Shown: positions 1 through 13,753 of the stretch, in pieces
Layout: every line of letters begins with the position of its first letter
Numbering within the stretch: the first letter of the stretch is position 1
Assembly: GCF_946479715.1 (NCBI RefSeq)
Contig: NZ_CAMLHF010000060.1
Span: forward strand, 1-26,596
Source: an uncultured Pedobacter sp.
GTDB taxonomy: Bacteria; Bacteroidota; Bacteroidia; Sphingobacteriales; Sphingobacteriaceae
Direction of reading: 5' to 3'
DNA: 26,596 bases
Notes under the pieces: model-generated
The model's database searches: none
Seen by the model: the letters and a program-made list of their open reading frames with translations, nothing else
What the model was told of the DNA's origin: nothing
Position numbers and translations under genes: made by a program

Positions 1-540
1 GTGTCTATTATGATTGCCTGCCTTACTTATAACAGATGGGCTAAGCATCATTCTATATTGGGCCCGCTTAATATGGGGTTATGCCGTGGATTAAATCTAT
101 TACTCGGTGTAAGTATTATTAGTTCTCAGGTGCAACAATGGTGGTTTTTAGCCCTTGTACCTATTATCTATATTGCATCTATTACCATGATTAGCAGAGG
201 TGAAGTACACGGAGGCAGCAAAAAGATGCTTTATTTTGCTGCGGTACTTTATGCTATAGTTATAGCCAGCATTCTTTTTTTCGCCACTACAAAAGGCGAC
301 TTACGCATCACATTGGCATTTATTGTACCTTTTGCTTTAATGATATTTATACCGCTGTTAAAAGCCATACAAAATCCAATAGGCCCAAACATATGCAAAG
401 CAGTAAAAGCAGGTGTTATTGCATTAATATTAATGAATGCTGCCTGGGCTAGTGTCTTCGCCGACTGGAAAGTAGCCCTATCAATTGTTATTTTATTACC
501 ATTATCAATATTACTAAGTAAAGCATTCGCCGTTACTTAG
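1..540 (+). CDS. eboC: EboC-like UbiA-family prenyltransferase (3' part, N-terminus outside window)
   Basis: C-terminal 179 residues of a polytopic membrane protein; the frame is open at base 1, so the true start lies upstream. About five hydrophobic segments are visible (roughly residues 28-45, 48-64, 76-94, 104-120 and 134-172). The early segment LGPLNMGLCRGLNLLLG is the Asn/Arg-containing signature I associate with UbiA-like EboC proteins. UbiA enzymes transfer prenyl groups to aromatic or polar acceptors in the membrane; the Ebo acceptor is not known. The Asp-rich N-terminal metal-binding motif cannot be checked because it is outside the window. The stop lies 16 nt before eboD and all following cluster genes are on the same strand. 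The assignment rests on both sequence and the diagnostic eboD-eboE-eboF order. Confidence 0.82.
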   Translation: MSIMIACLTYNRWAKHHSILGPLNMGLCRGLNLLLGVSIISSQVQQWWFLALVPIIYIASITMISRGEVHGGSKKMLYFAAVLYAIVIASILFFATTKGDLRITLAFIVPFALMIFIPLLKAIQNPIGPNICKAVKAGVIALILMNAAWASVFADWKVALSIVILLPLSILLSKAFAVT

Positions 541-556
541 ACAGGAATTTTCAACT

Positions 557-1735
557 ATGAGTTATTTAGAACAGTCGTTTAGCGTAAAATTTGAGTATAA
601 AATATACTTTACTGCTTCGCTATTTGATACAGGCAATCCCATCTTGGCAAACTTCTTTAAGGAGAAGCCTTCGGAGGCCTTGCGCAAAATATTTTTCGTA
701 CTGGACAAGGGTGTTGCCGATGCTCATCCTGACCTTGTACCATCAATTAAAGCTTACTTTGAGCAACATAAAGATGTGCAGCTGATCAAGGACATCATGA
801 TTGTTCCGGGCGGAGAAGCATCAAAAAATGACACTGCACTTTTTGACCAACTGGTTGAAGCAGTGAATATTTATGGAATTGACAGGCATTCGTACATTGC
901 TGCCATTGGAGGAGGCGCTGTACTTGATCTTGTTGGCTATGCTGCCGCAGTTTCGCACCGCGGTATTAAACATATCCGGATCCCTACAACTGTACTTTCG
1001 CAAAATGACTCTGGTATTGGTGTTAAAAACGGCATCAATTACAATGGTAAAAAGAACTTTCTTGGCACTTTTGCTCCACCATCAGCAGTATTTAATGATG
1101 ACCAGTTTTTGCTTACGTTAAGCGACAGAGATTGGCGTTCGGGTATTTCTGAAGCGGTAAAAGTAGCCCTTATCAAAGATCCCGAATTCTTTTACTGGAT
1201 TGAAGATAACGCAGCACAACTGGTTGCAAGGGATCTGGACACGATGAACTACCTGATCAAACGTTGTGCTCAATTGCATTTAAACCATATTGCAGGCGAT
1301 GATCCATTTGAAACAGGATCGGCAAGGCCATTAGATTTTGGCCACTGGAGTGCACATAAACTGGAGCAGCTAAGTAATTTCAGCGTCTTACATGGTGAAG
1401 CCGTGGCAATGGGCATTGCTTTAGATAGCACCTATTCTTTCCTGACAGGAATGCTAACAGAAGAAAAATTGCAGCGCATATTGAGTGTATTGCTTCACCT
1501 ATCTTTTGATATTTCAAATCCATTTATCCAGATTAACGATACTGAATCTCCAATACTTCGTGGATTGGCAGAATTTCAGGAACATCTTGGCGGTAAACTT
1601 ACCATTACCCTGCTTACTGATTTGGGTACCGGAAAAGAGGTGCATCAGATGGATCATCAGTTATTGATAGAAGCAAGCAACTATGTTTTAAACTTTACCA
1701 GTACACACGCTGGTTTACCTATAAGTAACCACTAA
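557..1735 (+). CDS. eboD: EboD, 3-dehydroquinate synthase-like sugar phosphate cyclase
   Basis: A 392-aa member of the sugar-phosphate cyclase superfamily (AroB fold, NAD and Zn dependent). The NAD-binding stretch IAAIGGGAVLDLVG is at about 114-127 and the PGGEASKND loop at about 84-92. Probable Zn ligands are E199 (SEAVK), H263 (DFGHWSAH) and H279 (LHGEA). It is not ordinary AroB: the LNxGHTxGHAxE block of dehydroquinate synthases reads LDFGHWSAHKLE here, and the Lys usually found about 20 residues before it appears to be His241. This suggests a substrate other than DAHP, possibly a heptulose phosphate as in the C7-cyclitol synthases; that part is inference. It is about 30 residues longer than typical AroB. 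Its stop is 2 nt before the eboE start, so translation is probably coupled. Start chosen at ATG 557, 16 nt after eboC. Confidence 0.9.
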   Translation: MSYLEQSFSVKFEYKIYFTASLFDTGNPILANFFKEKPSEALRKIFFVLDKGVADAHPDLVPSIKAYFEQHKDVQLIKDIMIVPGGEASKNDTALFDQLVEAVNIYGIDRHSYIAAIGGGAVLDLVGYAAAVSHRGIKHIRIPTTVLSQNDSGIGVKNGINYNGKKNFLGTFAPPSAVFNDDQFLLTLSDRDWRSGISEAVKVALIKDPEFFYWIEDNAAQLVARDLDTMNYLIKRCAQLHLNHIAGDDPFETGSARPLDFGHWSAHKLEQLSNFSVLHGEAVAMGIALDSTYSFLTGMLTEEKLQRILSVLLHLSFDISNPFIQINDTESPILRGLAEFQEHLGGKLTITLLTDLGTGKEVHQMDHQLLIEASNYVLNFTSTHAGLPISNH

Positions 1736-1737
1736 TA

Positions 1738-2946
1738 ATGAAAGTTAACACTGGCCATTTAACCTATTGCACAAACATACATCCGGGTAAAAACTGGGAT
1801 GATGATTTTAAAGCGTTACAAGAGAATTTTCCTGTTATCAAAAAATCGGTTTCACCAAATCAACCGCTTGGACTAGGACTTAGATTGTCCAATACCTCGA
1901 GTCTTGAATTGATAAATGAAGATGCTTTAACTGAGTTTAAGCAGTGGCTTGAGGAAAATGACGCTTATGTTTTTACCATGAATGGTTTCCCTTATGGCGA
2001 ATTTCACCGTACTGTGGTTAAAGAAGATGTACATACACCTGATTGGACAACCGACGCGCGAAGAGAATATACCATCAGACTTTTTAATATTCTCCAATCC
2101 ATATTACCTGAGGGGATGAATGGCGGAATTTCAACATCACCACTTAGTTACAGACACTGGTTTAAAACTGATGAGGATTTTGCGCAGGCAAAGCACACTG
2201 CTACCTTAAATGTAATAGAGGTTATAAAAGAACTGATTACAATTAGCGAGCAAAAAGGTAAAATTATGCACCTTGATCTGGAACCTGAACCTGATGGCAT
2301 ACTTGAAACCGGAAGAGAATTTATAGACTGGTTTGAGAATGATTTGTTGCCACTTGGCATTCCGGCAATTGAAAGTTCATTTAATGTTCCTGGCATTGAA
2401 GCCGAATCATTAATTAAAAAACACCTTTGCCTTTGCTATGATGTTTGTCACTTTGCTATAGGCTATGAAACTCATGATGAGGTTCTAAAAGAACTTGAAG
2501 CAAAAGGCATTAAAGTAGGTAAAATACAAATCAGCGCAGCTTTAAAAGCAAATCTTGATAAATCAGAAGCAGAAAGAGAAATCATAAAGAACAGCTTTCA
2601 GACCTTTAATGAGCCAACCTATCTGCATCAGGTAGTAGCCTTAAAGAAAGATGGTGGGCTGATTCGTTATTCGGACCTTACTCCTGCTCTTAATGACTTT
2701 GAAAACCAGGAGGCCATGCAATGGAGAGCACATTTCCATGTCCCAATATCAATTAAAGAGATCGGATTGTTACAATCTACTCAGGATGATATTACTACCG
2801 TTCTGGAACTTCAAAAGAATGCTCCTTTTACTGAACATCTGGAAGTAGAAACTTATACCTGGGAAGTATTACCGGAGCAATTAAAATTACCGATTGCCCA
2901 ATCCATCAGTAATGAACTGAATTGGGTAATTAAAACGAACATATAA
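1738..2946 (+). CDS. eboE: EboE, xylose-isomerase-like TIM-barrel protein (metabolite traffic protein)
   Basis: A 402-aa soluble protein that opens with the characteristic HLTYCTNIHPG (residues 7-17) of EboE proteins. The fold is expected to be a sugar phosphate isomerase/epimerase TIM barrel. Candidate metal or substrate residues are E182 and E184 (LDLEPEPDG), D235 and H238 (YDVCHFAIG) and Q264 (KIQIS). No signal peptide or membrane segment is seen, so it should be cytosolic. It starts 2 nt after eboD and ends 1 nt before eboF, so the three genes are very likely one transcript. In cyanobacteria the ebo genes are needed to move the scytonemin monomer to the periplasm; no such product is known in Bacteroidota, so the substrate here is unknown. 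Confidence 0.88.
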   Translation: MKVNTGHLTYCTNIHPGKNWDDDFKALQENFPVIKKSVSPNQPLGLGLRLSNTSSLELINEDALTEFKQWLEENDAYVFTMNGFPYGEFHRTVVKEDVHTPDWTTDARREYTIRLFNILQSILPEGMNGGISTSPLSYRHWFKTDEDFAQAKHTATLNVIEVIKELITISEQKGKIMHLDLEPEPDGILETGREFIDWFENDLLPLGIPAIESSFNVPGIEAESLIKKHLCLCYDVCHFAIGYETHDEVLKELEAKGIKVGKIQISAALKANLDKSEAEREIIKNSFQTFNEPTYLHQVVALKKDGGLIRYSDLTPALNDFENQEAMQWRAHFHVPISIKEIGLLQSTQDDITTVLELQKNAPFTEHLEVETYTWEVLPEQLKLPIAQSISNELNWVIKTNI

Positions 2947-2947
2947 G

Positions 2948-4300
2948 ATGAAGAAAACTGTAGTAATAGATGTTGTTGGCTTATCCTCGAACCTTATTGG
3001 CAAGCATACCCCCTTTTTAGAACAATATATAAAAGATAAAAACCTTGGGGCAATAGCACCAATGCTACCCGCAGTAACTACCAGTGTACAATCAACTTAT
3101 TTAACAGGAAAACAGCCAACAGAACATGGTGTTGTCGGAAACGGATGGTACGACCATATGGATTCGGAAATCAAATTCTGGAAGCAATCAAACAAGCTTG
3201 TGCTTGCAGAGAAGATCTGGGACAAAGCAAAAAAAGAAGACCCTGATTTTACTTGCGCCAATATGTTTTGGTGGTACAACATGTATTCAAATGCCGATTA
3301 CAGCGTAACTCCGCGTCCAAATTATTTAGCTGATGGCAGAAAACTTCCTGATTGCTATTCGGAACCTGCAGAACTACGCGATATTTTACAGGATAAATTA
3401 GGTCAGTTTCCGCTTTTTCAATTTTGGGGGCCAGGTGCCAATGTAAAATCGAGCCGATGGATTGCTGACGCATCTATGATTACGGAGGATCTTTACAATC
3501 CTACCCTTACCTTAATATATTTGCCACATCTGGATTATTGTTTACAAAAATTCGGTAGCGACTTTGATAAAATCAGTAAGGAGCTTGGTGAGATAGATGA
3601 ATTGATAAAGGACCTGGTAACATTTTATGAAAAAAAGGGAGCCAATATTATTATTCTATCCGAATACGGTATTGTTCCGGTAAGCAAACCGATTCACTTA
3701 AACAGAATTTTTAGAGAAAACGGACTGTTACAGATTCGTATAGAGCGAGGTTTGGAATTATTAGATGCGGGGGCTTCTAAAGCATTTGTGGTTGCGGATC
3801 ATCAGATTGCACATGTTTACATCAATGATCCATCCGTAGCCGATCAGGTAAAAATTATTCTTGAAAAAACTCCTGGCATTGCTATGGTTTTAGATAAAGC
3901 AGGCAAAAAGAAATACGGAATGGACCATGAAAGGGCCGGTGACTTTGTATTGGTTGCTGAACCTGCAAGCTGGTTTACTTATTATTTCTGGCTTGACGAT
4001 GCAAAAGCTCCTGATTATGCCAGGTGCGTAGATATTCATAAAAAACCAGGGTATGACCCTGTTGAAATGTTCATGTCTTCTAAACCGCGTGCGGCATACA
4101 AACTATTAAGAAAAAAAGCAGGTTTCCGTTATGTAATGGATGTTATTCCATTAGATGCCACCTTAATTAAGGGCTCACATGGCAGCATCAACACACCTGT
4201 AGAGTTTCACCCTGTTTTAATTACGGATCAAAAGCTAAACAACAGCAATTTACAGGCGACGGAAATTCATGATCTGATCTGGAAAGCGCTAAAGGGGTAA
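2948..4300 (+). CDS. eboF: EboF, nucleotide pyrophosphatase/alkaline-phosphatase-superfamily protein
   Basis: A 450-aa protein of the type I phosphodiesterase/alkaline phosphatase superfamily. Visible elements in order are D8 after the first beta strand (VVIDVVG), the nucleophile loop AVTTSVQSTYLTG (42-54) with T44/T45, TEHGVVGNGWY (58-68), LPHLDYCLQKFG (about 192-203), LSEYGI (about 237-242), ADHQIAHVYI in the second half, and a final KGSHGS near residue 415. The position normally reading S-D-H-G in nucleotide pyrophosphatases reads S-E-Y-G, while D-H pairs occur elsewhere, so metal coordination may differ from the textbook enzyme. There is no signal peptide. The gene is last in the ebo cluster, 1 nt after eboE. 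EboF proteins have no established substrate. Confidence 0.85.
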   Translation: MKKTVVIDVVGLSSNLIGKHTPFLEQYIKDKNLGAIAPMLPAVTTSVQSTYLTGKQPTEHGVVGNGWYDHMDSEIKFWKQSNKLVLAEKIWDKAKKEDPDFTCANMFWWYNMYSNADYSVTPRPNYLADGRKLPDCYSEPAELRDILQDKLGQFPLFQFWGPGANVKSSRWIADASMITEDLYNPTLTLIYLPHLDYCLQKFGSDFDKISKELGEIDELIKDLVTFYEKKGANIIILSEYGIVPVSKPIHLNRIFRENGLLQIRIERGLELLDAGASKAFVVADHQIAHVYINDPSVADQVKIILEKTPGIAMVLDKAGKKKYGMDHERAGDFVLVAEPASWFTYYFWLDDAKAPDYARCVDIHKKPGYDPVEMFMSSKPRAAYKLLRKKAGFRYVMDVIPLDATLIKGSHGSINTPVEFHPVLITDQKLNNSNLQATEIHDLIWKALKG

Positions 4301-4373: not shown

Positions 4374-6725
4374 ATGGACTCAAGAAGAGACTTTCTTAAA
4401 AAAGCTGCCCTATTGTCTGGGGCAGTGGGTTTACCCAATGTAATTCCTATGTCTATCCAAAAGGCAATGGCAATTGAAGCAGATCCCGGATCTACATTTT
4501 ATGATGCAGAGCATATTGTAATCCTGATGCAGGAGAACCGCTCCTTTGATCATATGTTTGGTAAACTCAAAGGTGTCCGTGGCTTTAATGATCCAAGAGC
4601 TTTTACACTTCCTGATAAGGATAAGGTCTGGTTACAAAAGGATAATGAAGGCAAAACATACGCACCGTTTCACATAGACATTAATAAAACAAAAATAACC
4701 TGGCAAGGCGGCCTGCCTCACTCCTGGTCGGACCAGCTTGCTGCCCGAAACAATGGCAAGTATGATAAATGGGTGCCCGTAAAATCACTTATGTCTTTAG
4801 GGTATTATGACAGGACAGATATTCCTTTTTACTACTCAATGGCCGAAGCCTTTACGATTTGTGACCATAATTTCTGCTCATCTCTTACCGGCACTACTCC
4901 AAACAGGTTATTTTTCTGGACAGGTAACATCCGCCCCGAGTTAAACGGGAGTTCGGTAGCAGCTGTAAACAATTCTCAAGCAGAATCAAGAGATGGTGCT
5001 TTTGTAGATTGGGATACATTTCCAGAGGTATTGGAAGATAATGGCATTGATTGGAAGATCTACCAAAATGAAATATGGACAGCCGATTTACAAGGTGATA
5101 ATGTAGATGATTGGTTAGGTAATTACGGGGACAATGCAATTGAGTATGTAAAACGCTACAACGTTAAGCTTGCTGCATATTTCAGAAAGAATGGTGATTC
5201 GACAAGTAAACCTCCCCTCACTGCAGCGCAGGTAACCGAGAAATACAATAAGCTATCCACCCGTGAAAAGAATTTAATAGACAAAGCATTTGCCAGCAAT
5301 ATAAATGCTCCGTTTAACTATCTGGAACTTGCTCCATTTACCTTTACTAATGACCAGGGACAGGAAGAAACCATCAGCATCCCTAAAAATGATATCTTCC
5401 ATCAGTTCCGTTCTGATGTTGACAATGGCAAACTACCCACCGTTTCATGGCTGGTAGCTCCACAAAGATTCTCAGATCACACCAGTTCACCATTGTATGG
5501 AACGTGGTATGTATCTGAAGCGCTTGACATTTTAACAAAGAACCCCGAAGTATGGAAAAAAACAGTTTTTATCCTTACGTATGATGAAAATGATGGCTAC
5601 TTTGATCATATCCCTCCATATGTAGTTCCAAAACCTAACGACCCATCAAGCGGAAAAGTTTCTGAAGGAATCTCTGTTGATGCTGATTATGAGCTAAAAA
5701 AAGATAGCCCTATTGGTTTAGGCTATCGCGTGCCAATGATCATAGCCTCTCCCTGGAGCAAAGGAGGCTATGTAAATTCGCAAGTTTTTGACCATACCTC
5801 TTCACTGATGTTTTTAGAAAACATACTTAGCAAAAAAACCGGAAAGAAAATTCGCAGTAATAAGATTAGCAGCTGGAGAAGAGTAATTTGTGGCGATCTG
5901 ACATCAGCTTTCAGGCCTTCAGTAGGGATGTCATCTGTTACACCAACACCTTTAAAAAGAGAAGAAGTTGTTACCAATATTCAAAATGCAAAAAATAAAC
6001 CGGCACAGGTTAAGCCAAATCCTTTATCAAAAGCTGAAATAACCTCAGGAGCCTATTTGCCACAACAGGAGCGTGGAACAAGTAAGGCTTGCGCTTTACC
6101 ATACCAACTCTTTGCAGAATGTAATCTTGATAGTTCTAAGACCAAAGTAGAACTTCAGCTAGAAGCAGGGAGAGGCAATTTCGGACAAAAAATATTGCCT
6201 GTTGGGGCGCCCTTTAACGTATACACCACCAATCTATACAATGGGCAGTCGGGAAAGACCTGGGCATATGCAGTGAAAAATGGAGACAAAATTTTGGACC
6301 ATTTAATGTTACAAAACTTTGGGGATGGGCAATACAATTTATGCGTAAGTGCGCCTAATGGCTTTTTCCGTGAGTTTAAAGGCGATAAAAATGACCCTTC
6401 CTTAAATGTTAATTGCCATTATGAGGTTAAAGGGTTTTTAAACAAAAAGCCAAGTGGCAACATTGAACTTATCCTTCAAAATGAAGGTAATCAGGATTTA
6501 AAGATAAATGTTATCGACAACGCTTATAAAAGCGATATTACCAGATCGATATCATTAGATAAAAAAAGCAGGAAAACTTTCATTATTGACCTGCAAAAGA
6601 GCTCAGGATGGTATGATTTTACAATTCAATTAGAGGGCTACAGCGCATTTTCAAAGCAATATGCCGGGCATGTTGAAACAGGAGAAGATTCGATAACAGA
6701 TCCATACATGGGCGGGGTGGTTTAA
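4374..6725 (+). CDS. Tat-exported phosphocholine-specific phospholipase C (AcpA/PLC family)
   Basis: A 783-aa protein with a twin-arginine signal, SRRDFLKK followed by a hydrophobic stretch, processed after about residue 33. The catalytic domain (about 40-510) shows the family motifs QENRSFDHMFG near residue 55, GTTPNRLFFWTG near 175 and YDENDGYFDHIPP near 403. The C-terminal part (about 570-780) has two beta-rich repeats of the DUF756 type found in PlcN/PlcH-like enzymes. Members cleave the phosphodiester of phosphatidylcholine or sphingomyelin outside the cytoplasm; whether this one prefers phosphatidylethanolamine or another lipid cannot be read from sequence. It lies 73 nt after eboF with its own -7 element, so cotranscription with ebo is possible but not required. 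The stop overlaps the end of the convergent gene by 4 nt. Confidence 0.9.
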   Translation: MDSRRDFLKKAALLSGAVGLPNVIPMSIQKAMAIEADPGSTFYDAEHIVILMQENRSFDHMFGKLKGVRGFNDPRAFTLPDKDKVWLQKDNEGKTYAPFHIDINKTKITWQGGLPHSWSDQLAARNNGKYDKWVPVKSLMSLGYYDRTDIPFYYSMAEAFTICDHNFCSSLTGTTPNRLFFWTGNIRPELNGSSVAAVNNSQAESRDGAFVDWDTFPEVLEDNGIDWKIYQNEIWTADLQGDNVDDWLGNYGDNAIEYVKRYNVKLAAYFRKNGDSTSKPPLTAAQVTEKYNKLSTREKNLIDKAFASNINAPFNYLELAPFTFTNDQGQEETISIPKNDIFHQFRSDVDNGKLPTVSWLVAPQRFSDHTSSPLYGTWYVSEALDILTKNPEVWKKTVFILTYDENDGYFDHIPPYVVPKPNDPSSGKVSEGISVDADYELKKDSPIGLGYRVPMIIASPWSKGGYVNSQVFDHTSSLMFLENILSKKTGKKIRSNKISSWRRVICGDLTSAFRPSVGMSSVTPTPLKREEVVTNIQNAKNKPAQVKPNPLSKAEITSGAYLPQQERGTSKACALPYQLFAECNLDSSKTKVELQLEAGRGNFGQKILPVGAPFNVYTTNLYNGQSGKTWAYAVKNGDKILDHLMLQNFGDGQYNLCVSAPNGFFREFKGDKNDPSLNVNCHYEVKGFLNKKPSGNIELILQNEGNQDLKINVIDNAYKSDITRSISLDKKSRKTFIIDLQKSSGWYDFTIQLEGYSAFSKQYAGHVETGEDSITDPYMGGVV

Positions 6726-12730: not shown

Positions 12731-13537
12731 TTATTTAACAATACCTGCAAAGCGCTGGTAAAACACGGTTGGACTATTTTCATTTTTAGGAGCATACTTG
12801 CCTGCGATGATTGGAATGTAAATTACCCTCCTACGACTTTGTTCACCAATTACGGTAGATTGTGCAACACGATGCCATAACCTTCCATCGTGGATAGTAA
12901 GATCACCAACCTCTGGCACTACTGCAATTTCTTCGGCGTCTTCATCATGGTCAAGAAAGTATTTTTTTCTGAAAAGCATCTGATAAAGCCCTTGCTTGTG
13001 TGTACCTGGAATTATTCTTAAACCACCATTTTCAGGTTCAAGATTATTTAAATGTATTCCCACATTAAGCATCGGATTTAACTTTTGACCATAAAAAACA
13101 TCTCTTAACCCATCAGTATGCCATCCCATTTTGGTGAATTTACTATCCGGGCCATTTACATAATGATTAAAAACCATTCCGTCTTTTTCGCTTTCACCAA
13201 GTCTGGCACCAGTACCAGCAAGCTCAAGTAATCCATTTAGTCTTGGATCAAGTAAAAGACCACTAAATGCCGAATGATGCTGGTTAATAAATGCAAATCG
13301 TTGTACGATAGAAGAACCATCGAGATCACGTCCATATTTAATTGGAACGCCATTAACCTTACTTACATCCTTTTCTAACCAATTTTTTTGCACTTCCAGA
13401 GAAGCATCTACAATTGATTTTACAGTTTGAGGTGTTATAAAGTTTTTGAAATGAATAAAGCCATTTGTATTAAAAAAGTTTTTTTGTTCAGCGGTTAAAG
13501 TTTCAGCTAATGAAAACTTTGGATATGAAGTTGCCAT
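12731..13537 (-). CDS. Phytanoyl-CoA dioxygenase (PhyH)-family Fe(II)/2-oxoglutarate oxygenase
   Basis: A 268-aa double-stranded beta-helix oxygenase. Iron ligands are H140 and D142 in MGWHTDGL and H222 in LTIHDGRLWHRV; R236 or R237 would bind 2-oxoglutarate. The N-terminus, LTAEQKNFFNTNGFIHFKNFI, is the standard PhyH opening. The family hydroxylates varied small molecules such as acyl-CoAs, ectoine and antibiotics; this substrate is unknown. There is no signal peptide. A 29-codon ORF rich in Met and ending in four Cys lies 71 nt upstream on the same strand behind a promoter. The enzyme may therefore be controlled by Cys/Met supply and take part in sulfur or one-carbon metabolism; this is inference from context only. 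Confidence 0.88.
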   Translation of the reverse strand: MATSYPKFSLAETLTAEQKNFFNTNGFIHFKNFITPQTVKSIVDASLEVQKNWLEKDVSKVNGVPIKYGRDLDGSSIVQRFAFINQHHSAFSGLLLDPRLNGLLELAGTGARLGESEKDGMVFNHYVNGPDSKFTKMGWHTDGLRDVFYGQKLNPMLNVGIHLNNLEPENGGLRIIPGTHKQGLYQMLFRKKYFLDHDEDAEEIAVVPEVGDLTIHDGRLWHRVAQSTVIGEQSRRRVIYIPIIAGKYAPKNENSPTVFYQRFAGIVK

Positions 13538-13608
13538 AGGTATATTTTGTAAAAAATTAAAAGAAGGTATTATTTGAAATCAGAGTTGGGCTGGGCGGCC
13601 CTTAGAAA

Positions 13609-13698
13609 TTAACAGCAACAACACTGCATGGGCTTCATCATCTGAAGCATTGCCATGGAGTGATTTAATGAAAAGTTGTTATCTGTTTTAATAGACAT
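13609..13698 (-). CDS. 29-aa Met/Cys-rich leader peptide upstream of phyH
   Basis: A short ORF from ATG at 13698 to TAA at 13609. The C-terminal part reads HSMAMLQMMKPMQCCCC, then stop; 6 Met and 4 Cys make up 10 of 29 residues. A promoter (TTG at 13751-13753 and TATGTTTG at 13726-13733, minus strand, 17-nt spacer) predicts a start about 20 nt before its ATG. The ORF lies 71 nt before phyH. Its Cys codons (TGT TGT TGC TGT) are in one arm of a long-range stem. Leader peptides with runs of a regulatory amino acid usually control the downstream gene by ribosome stalling, and Cys-rich uORFs are known in actinobacteria. A metal-binding micropeptide or a RiPP precursor for the oxygenase are less likely alternatives. 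Confidence 0.6.
   Translation of the reverse strand: MSIKTDNNFSLNHSMAMLQMMKPMQCCCC
13611..13687 (-). promoter_or_regulatory. Folded leader RNA spanning the Met/Cys-rich ORF
   Basis: In the minus-strand RNA, AACAG-AT-AACAAC (13687-13675, codons 4-8) pairs with GTTGTT-G-CTGTT (13622-13611, the Cys codons and stop), giving 11 bp with a small internal loop. Nested inside is CATGG-(caat)-GCTTCA / TGAAGC-CCATG, giving another 11 bp around a 5-nt GATGA loop. A ribosome on the Cys codons would disrupt the outer stem. After the stop only a short GGGC/GCCC hairpin is seen and no clear U-tract terminator. Confidence 0.5.
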
Positions 13699-13725
13699 AG
13701 TCTATGTGTTTAGTAGTTTATTTTA

Positions 13726-13753
13726 CAAACATATAAAATATATTGAATACCAA
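13726..13753 (-). promoter_or_regulatory. Promoter of the leader peptide-phyH unit
   Basis: On the minus strand TTG (13753-13751), 17 nt, then TATGTTTG (13733-13726) matches the Bacteroidota -33/-7 pattern. The predicted start is near 13719, about 20 nt before the leader ATG and about 180 nt before the phyH ATG. Confidence 0.6.

Follow-up and report, generated by a model that had tools for sequence, protein, structure and literature searches.

A short upstream open reading frame ending in cysteine codons as a candidate cysteine-responsive leader of a PhyH oxygenase gene in Pedobacter and related bacteria

In an uncultured Pedobacter sp., the gene of a PhyH-family oxygenase (phyH) is preceded by a short upstream open reading frame (uORF) that ends in a run of four cysteine codons. 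Sequence comparisons make it very probable that this uORF is the gene of a cysteine-responsive leader peptide which, together with an adjacent dyad element, would place phyH in a sulfur- or cysteine-limitation regulon. In the proposed mechanism, the phyH mRNA would begin just upstream of the uORF and ribosomes would translate it; when Cys-tRNA is short, they would slow down on the Cys codons and phyH expression would go up. A repressor, probably a CymR-like protein of the Rrf2 family, may add a second, transcriptional layer by occupying the dyad when cysteine is plentiful. The joint regulon would comprise phyH, metY and a TonB receptor gene and, in Flavobacterium, also a sulfatase cluster. Slowed reading at low Cys-tRNA is argued from the Cys codons and the nature of the targets, and the link to sulfur limitation from the Cys-run uORFs before metY, the TonB receptor gene and the SusC gene of the sulfatase cluster, together with the dyads shared in Flavobacterium; we infer translation, stalling, the direction of the response and the identity of the repressor. 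These sister uORFs and shared dyads lend support to the initial annotation of this DNA, which had placed phyH in a sulfur-limitation response.

The window, i.e. the whole stretch of 26,596 nucleotides that was analysed (contig NZ_CAMLHF010000060.1), carries the uORF and phyH on the minus strand (Table 1). Translation and coordinates confirm what had first been described, a short ORF with four terminal Cys codons whose stop codon lies 71 nt before the phyH ATG (13537). The encoded peptide, MSIKTDNNFSLNHSMAMLQMMKPMQCCCC, has 29 codons, and the one third of sulfur-bearing residues attributed to it corresponds to ten of 29 (six Met and four Cys). Six runs of at least three TGY codons occur in the window, all on the minus strand; that of the uORF is intergenic and is the only one with four codons. 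Elsewhere in the window, an EboC-type gene (cut by the window edge) and an EboE gene, with a 3-dehydroquinate-synthase-like gene between them, occupy positions 1–4300 and presumably form part of an ebo cluster, and a phosphocholine-specific phospholipase C that scores over its NCBIfam cut-off is encoded at 4374–6725.

Table 1. Features of the phyH leader and gene in the window.
Feature	Position	Strand	Evidence
uORF (putative leader peptide MSIKTDNNFSLNHSMAMLQMMKPMQCCCC) with stop codon	13609..13698	minus	translation; Cys-run uORF in 80/81 leaders
Run of four Cys codons, TGT TGT TGC TGT	13612..13623	minus	mostly synonymous change in relatives
phyH, PhyH-family oxygenase, presumed controlled gene	12731..13537	minus	PF05721, E 6.5e-17
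TATGTTTG, −7 box (TAnnTTTG)	13726..13733	minus	sequence match; consensus presumed
TTG (possible −33 element), 17 nt upstream of the −7 box	13751..13753	minus	window sequence
Dyad CTACTAAACACATAG (CTA-N9-TAG), candidate repressor site	13702..13716	minus	sequence; putative site
Small hairpin GGGC-CGCCCA-GCCC after the uORF stop	13588..13601	minus	weak, mean z −1.09 (9 leaders)

The phyH product matches its family domain over the gathering score, and its residues H140, D142 and H222, which we take to be the HxD...H metal triad of PhyH oxygenases, are invariant in 20 aligned orthologues. Structure searches with the protein returned the 2-oxoglutarate-oxygenase fold class alone and indicated no substrate.

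To describe the distribution of the uORF, one-per-species GTDB genomes were scanned with the PhyH protein. This gave 163 confirmed relatives, the best 80 of which were kept; they span Pedobacter, Flavobacterium, Arcticibacter, Desertivirga, Xanthocytophaga and other genera. An ATG-started uORF with at least three consecutive Cys codons lies within 250 nt of phyH in 80 of the 81 leaders (the window and the best 80 of 163), against 15 of 8,100 dinucleotide shuffles, and one with at least four Cys codons in 77 of the 81, against none of 8,100, the 81 loci being related and hence not 81 independent trials. Loss of the ORF or its Cys codons in related genomes, which had been named as the outcome that would speak against a leader, is therefore not what is observed. 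The run comprises three to eight Cys codons and in most leaders stands at the uORF end or close to it, and the N-termini of the uORFs are unrelated between groups while the run is kept. The sole exception, from Xanthocytophaga (L061), has a uORF that ends in RCCS; in another leader (L026) the dyad-linked start is lost and an inner MRMCCCCA frame alone remains. Dyad, ATG and run could be located together by script in 68 leaders, and in all but one of these (67) the dyad-adjacent ATG shares its frame with the TGY run; the 13 others of the 81 were left out of this count. In 17 of the 80 uORF-bearing leaders, 16 from genomes named Flavobacterium or Flavobacteriaceae and one from [Flexibacter] sp., the uORF extends beyond the phyH ATG as far as +40, in a frame other than that of phyH, and the run is non-terminal.

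A second, order-wide set, which overlaps the 80-locus set in species, contained a phyH match in 32 of 121 genomes and the uORF in 29 of the 30 loci given, the exception (L315) having a uORF that ends in YCCGA. Two order-wide phyH matches of 52–53% identity show no Cys run in three frames. Class-wide, 11 of 149 genomes had a phyH match, with ten new loci: two of these, 93% identical to the Flavobacterium query, carry the uORF, and none of the eight distant homologues (46–59% identity) does. Because these distant homologues are without it, the uORF is a feature of close orthologues (in the order-wide set, at least 68% identity to the protein of the window) and not of every PhyH protein. A plasmid origin of the leader was considered and rejected, as no match was found.

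Selection on the Cys codons is strongly indicated by pairwise comparison. In 251 ungapped pairs of similar uORFs, which are not independent of each other, the codons of the Cys run were identical in 908 cases, synonymous in 395 and nonsynonymous in 67, against 3,850, 268 and 1,080, respectively, for the other uORF codons of the same pairs. It supersedes a count by codon position whose treatment of the Cys run was circular. The uORF shows two properties of a leader-peptide gene: it is a short ORF on the strand of its gene, rich in the codon that would be sensed, and the codons are kept while the peptide varies. A Cys run retained behind variable N-termini and placed before sulfur genes had been predicted for such a leader, and the leaders, the codon counts and the sister leaders described below agree with that prediction.

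Unrelated Cys-run uORFs sit before sulfur genes in the genomes that carry the phyH leader. The metY gene, identified as the best O-acetylhomoserine sulfhydrylase match and over the NCBIfam cut-off in all 11 named genomes, has a uORF with three consecutive Cys codons (CCC uORF) within 500 nt in nine of them; of the two exceptions, L243 has a uORF ending in RCCQK and the Desertivirga locus L237 has no Cys-run uORF. In Pedobacter and Arcticibacter, the Cys uORF of metY is preceded by a SAM riboswitch (RF00162) in the four loci scanned of six. At L234, L235, L238 and L240 (about 1090–1470), the order of SAM riboswitch and Cys-run uORF apparently puts SAM and cysteine in series. All four Flavobacterium metY leaders carry an intrinsic terminator (−18.5 kcal/mol) after the Cys uORF, and from their sequence they look like classical terminator attenuators. 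Across the phylum, no CCC uORF was found at the best-scoring 30 of 58 metY places, which lean to other classes. Short Met- and Cys-rich ORFs without CCC precede metY at L362, L366, L367 and L368, one of them with MMCMCC.

A TonB receptor orthologue is present in ten of the 11 genomes and has a CCC uORF in five of the ten. The other five leaders have CC or CxC, namely CCYC in L332 and MCMC or MCIC near the end in four from Flavobacterium. In these Flavobacterium leaders (L335–L338), where MCMC or MCIC forms the uORF end, a TCTACTAATCACATATA site stands immediately before the gene, and in F. johnsoniae an Rrf2 gene adjoins the TonB receptor gene. In Flavobacterium, the SusC gene belonging to the sulfatase cluster is preceded by a uORF MK[TK]MQ[ST]CCCK at about −166 in four of four genomes, and MCSCC is found before the sulfatase gene of the cluster in both cases examined. 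A five-codon MCFCC ORF lies about 370 nt before the same SusC gene, again in four of four (L152, L277, L162 and L125). CCC uORFs are absent from the leaders of the cluster hydroxylase (0/2) and of a second SusC gene (0/4), two of the latter four containing MKKRMCCR. Both metY and the sulfatase cluster, as targets of such sister leaders, are consistent with a role in sulfur metabolism.

Among 39 control leaders no CCC uORF was found: none of 11 for cysD, which lies inside operons and is a weak control, none of 16 for PLP paralogues, from which L249, L251 and L252 were dropped because the match begins inside the protein, and none of 12 for Rrf2 genes, one further place without a locus having been dropped. 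A search of the 11 genomes for four TGY codons followed by a stop gave 58 sites, against five for the reversed pattern. Of these, 57 were examined, the other being the already known Desertivirga phyH leader (L012). Eight of the 57 are ATG-started short ORFs outside any open frame of at least 300 nt, and they precede phyH (four), the TonB receptor gene (two), metY (one) and a relative of the fatty-acid hydroxylase (one). Seven more ATG-started ORFs lie under long frames, one of which is the L174 phyH leader, and the rest have no ATG. The hydroxylase-type gene, from Desertivirga, encodes a protein 62% identical to the fatty-acid hydroxylase (PF04116) of the sulfatase cluster; at its locus (L215), two tandem Cys-run uORFs stand at −784 and −529. 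In genome G001, three Cys codons followed by a stop occur at 73 sites, against 18 for the reversed control, and no such uORF stood out among the 15 loci read of 30.

The initial annotation had also placed a promoter before the uORF. A scan for E. coli-type sigma-70 sites found none at the uORF and five over its 2 kb, where shuffles gave 7.7; what stands of the claim is TATGTTTG, which begins 35 nt before the uORF ATG. We take its form, TAnnTTTG, to be the Bacteroidota −7 consensus, and the box would thus be of the Bacteroidota type. Among the relatives, 67 of the 80 leaders have an exact TAnnTTTG and nine more have TAnnTTCG, usually at the same distance of 35 nt from the ATG. From the box we infer that the phyH mRNA starts just before the uORF. 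The dyad of the window, CTACTAAACACATAG, begins 18 nt before the uORF ATG. With a threshold of at least 11 of the 15 letters of CTACTAATTCTATAG within 90 nt of that ATG, a similar dyad precedes the uORF start in 78 of the 80 uORF-bearing leaders, in 69 of them at −18; the remaining two (L006 and L008) have CTA-N9-TAG sites with other letters, and some copies are longer palindromes, GTCTAC-N7-GTAGAC (L317 and L323). Since the dyad is mostly at −18 and the box some 35 nt upstream, the dyad falls between the −7 box and the ATG, a place where a repressor could act.

The 11 genomes contain 17 exact copies of TCTACTAATNNNATAGA, and the four from Flavobacterium account for 15 of these. The 15 copies belong to phyH (four), the SusC/sulfatase cluster (six), the second SusC gene (three, one of which was assigned by eye) and a Cys-rich glutamate dehydrogenase leader (two). 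The cluster encodes an alkyl sulfatase, a sulfatase, a rhodanese-thioredoxin and a SusC-type receptor, and its SusC gene is oriented divergently to a nitrate-transporter-type or moeA gene. In the glutamate dehydrogenase leaders of F. johnsoniae and F. sp. SLB02 (L157, about 5946–5573, minus strand, and L116), the order is dyad, Cys-rich uORF, a hairpin with a T-run (by eye) and a second Cys-rich ORF. With one mismatch allowed, 68 sites were found in the 11 genomes, against 57 for the reversed control, with 42 against 16 in Flavobacterium and 26 against 41 in the other seven genomes. Single matches outside Flavobacterium prove little, because such sites are no commoner there than the reversed control. 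In P. panaciterrae (L159, 1985–4690), TCTACTAATTCCGTAGA stands before the genes of a family 2A encapsulin and its cysteine desulfurase cargo, and in F. johnsoniae TCGACTAATTCGATAGA lies about 30 nt before the metY uORF.

A CymR-like Rrf2 gene lies within a sulfate-assimilation cluster in three of the four genomes in which Rrf2 genes were sought. In P. zeae, it directly precedes a sulfite/nitrite-reductase-type gene, followed downstream by siroheme genes, cysH and cysN (all read by eye), and then by cysD. The best specific NCBIfam match of the P. zeae protein is CymR (NF047409), at 87.2 bits and below the cut-off of 195, and the protein passes the cut-off of the Rrf2 superfamily (112.7 versus 73.3). 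The best Rrf2 genes of F. johnsoniae and F. defluvii are each situated between the gene of a Cys/Met PLP enzyme and cysD, and in P. panaciterrae the best Rrf2 gene and cysD are on different contigs. The repressor that would bind the dyad is probably this CymR-like Rrf2 protein.

The phyH leader of the window contains no terminator-like site of the kind found in classical attenuators, and the window has no Rfam match. The small hairpin after the uORF stop is found in all 11 leaders of the window's group (the window, L001–L008, L010 and L012), with differing letters, and was not seen in the other leader groups as a whole. An attenuator hairpin in the phyH leader was rejected, the post-stop hairpins being weak and confined to this group. 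In Flavobacterium, the stretch from the Cys run to phyH holds less structure than its shuffles do (21 leaders, mean z +0.98), and folding of whole leaders gave mean z values of −1.1 to −1.3 in all four groups. Sequestration of the phyH start site by the Cys codons looks plausible by eye in Pedobacter but gave a weak signal: base pairing between uORF and phyH start (mean z −1.0, −0.7, 0.0 and −0.4 in the four groups) hardly beats shuffles and is not apparent in Flavobacterium, whose uORFs match the phyH starts of Pedobacter better than the native ones. Exchanging the partners often does not worsen the pairing, and the exchange revealed no general fit between a uORF and its gene start. With no terminator visible ahead of phyH, control of translation initiation or Rho-dependent control would be likelier than hairpin attenuation. 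The 17 uORFs that read across the phyH start would fit an interference with initiation that is relieved by stalling; Rho-dependent control is equally possible.

The strong conservation of the run, kept in 80 of 81 leaders, could also be explained if the uORF encoded a functional small Cys-rich peptide for binding of copper or zinc or for redox binding, and not a codon-reading leader. Three to eight consecutive cysteines could bind metal, but the peptides otherwise differ: their N-termini are unrelated between groups, the run length varies and 17 of 80 have a long, different tail. Moreover, Cys runs recur, again with unrelated N-termini, before unrelated genes, several of which are sulfur genes. 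Metal-sensing leaders such as CruR have spaced Cys motifs, which also argues against a metal-binding peptide, and this explanation is considered unlikely.

Slightly less probable still is regulation by the dyad and its repressor alone, with the uORF as a by-product of a short 5′ leader. The dyad is indeed present in 78 of 80 leaders, mostly at a fixed place, and some dyad-bearing genes have no CCC uORF (second SusC, 0/4; hydroxylase, 0/2). The strong selection on the Cys codons opposes this, as does the recurrence of Cys-run uORFs elsewhere, some without a matched dyad (metY of L240, and L334). Of similarly low probability is a leader whose Met codons would make it a sensor of methionine, alone or together with cysteine. 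Six of the 29 residues are Met in the window, an MRM before the Cys run recurs in many relatives (Flavobacterium and part of Pedobacter), and the Flavobacterium metY leaders are rich in both Met and Cys. However, the number and place of the Met codons vary whereas the Cys codons are kept, and at the Pedobacter metY the SAM riboswitch already covers the SAM side. Of the two amino acids originally proposed, cysteine is accordingly favoured, and methionine as the main signal was rejected. Chance, or a simple TGY-repeat artefact, is hardly credible: these genomes are rich in TGY runs, and the majority of sites with four TGY codons and a stop are not ATG-started free-standing ORFs, but neither the shuffles (15 of 8,100 versus 80 of 81) nor the in-frame ATGs (67 of 68) nor the control leaders (0 of 39) can be reconciled with it.

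If the uORF is a cysteine-responsive leader, it would give sequence-based access to the sulfur-limitation regulon of a phylum that is important in the environment, and the PhyH oxygenase would be assigned to this regulon; no description of such a regulon of Bacteroidota was found in the literature searched. The poly-Cys leaders before unrelated Bacteroidota genes suggest a repeated origin of the cysteine gauge. In addition, a version with terminator (metY) and one without (phyH) occur in the same genomes, which makes the action of terminator-less Cys leaders directly testable. A bolder proposal, which we consider possible though doubtful, is an undescribed two-layer cysteine-limitation regulon, composed of a CymR-like Rrf2 protein on CTA-N9-TAG and separately arisen poly-Cys leaders, that governs, in addition to assimilation and scavenging, lipid-type enzymes (PhyH, its SDR neighbour and a fatty-acid hydroxylase). 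Were it true, these bacteria might save sulfur by remodelling their membranes, for instance under conditions that prevent sulfonolipid synthesis.

The CymR regulon, governed by a member of the Rrf2 family, belongs to the Firmicutes. The Rrf2 gene of P. zeae lies in the sulfate-assimilation cluster and its product has CymR as best specific match, but the score is under the CymR cut-off. Nothing on poly-Cys leaders of Bacteroidota was found in a literature search, which most subscription journals lay outside, in line with the earlier statement that no established equivalent is known from this phylum. Clues for leader peptides before amino-acid operons have been described in F. psychrophilum (PMC9723704), and leader-like short ORFs in B. 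thetaiotaomicron (PMC7366714); unlike the phyH leader, the relevant passages of these papers, supplements excluded, name no cysteine leader and no phyH.

In Rhodobacterales, the uORFC-8-2 motif before cysS is presented as a ribosome-mediated attenuator with tandem Cys codons (PMC8632094). Both this motif and the phyH leader are uORFs with tandem Cys codons but, as far as the cited passage goes, uORFC-8-2 has two Cys codons and an intrinsic terminator, and the Flavobacterium metY leader is closer to it than the phyH leader is. Poly-Cys leaderless short ORFs are known from mycobacteria (Canestrari et al. 2020, as cited in PMC9094748, PMC13236596 and PMC9031893). For Actinobacteria, leader peptides with Cys runs and without terminators had been predicted earlier, in 2005, and Rho-dependent control was proposed for them (PMC1262725). 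According to the passages available from these sources, the mycobacterial and actinobacterial leaders share with the phyH leader a Cys run near the stop codon, a position before sulfur genes and no reported terminator in between. Unlike them, the phyH leader belongs to another phylum, has a PhyH oxygenase as its target, is preceded by a dyad and, in part of Flavobacterium, overlaps the gene start. By this comparison, the phyH leader would work like the mycobacterial poly-Cys leaders and less like the cysS motif of Rhodobacterales. The kind of leader is already known; new here are its phylum, its target and its layout.
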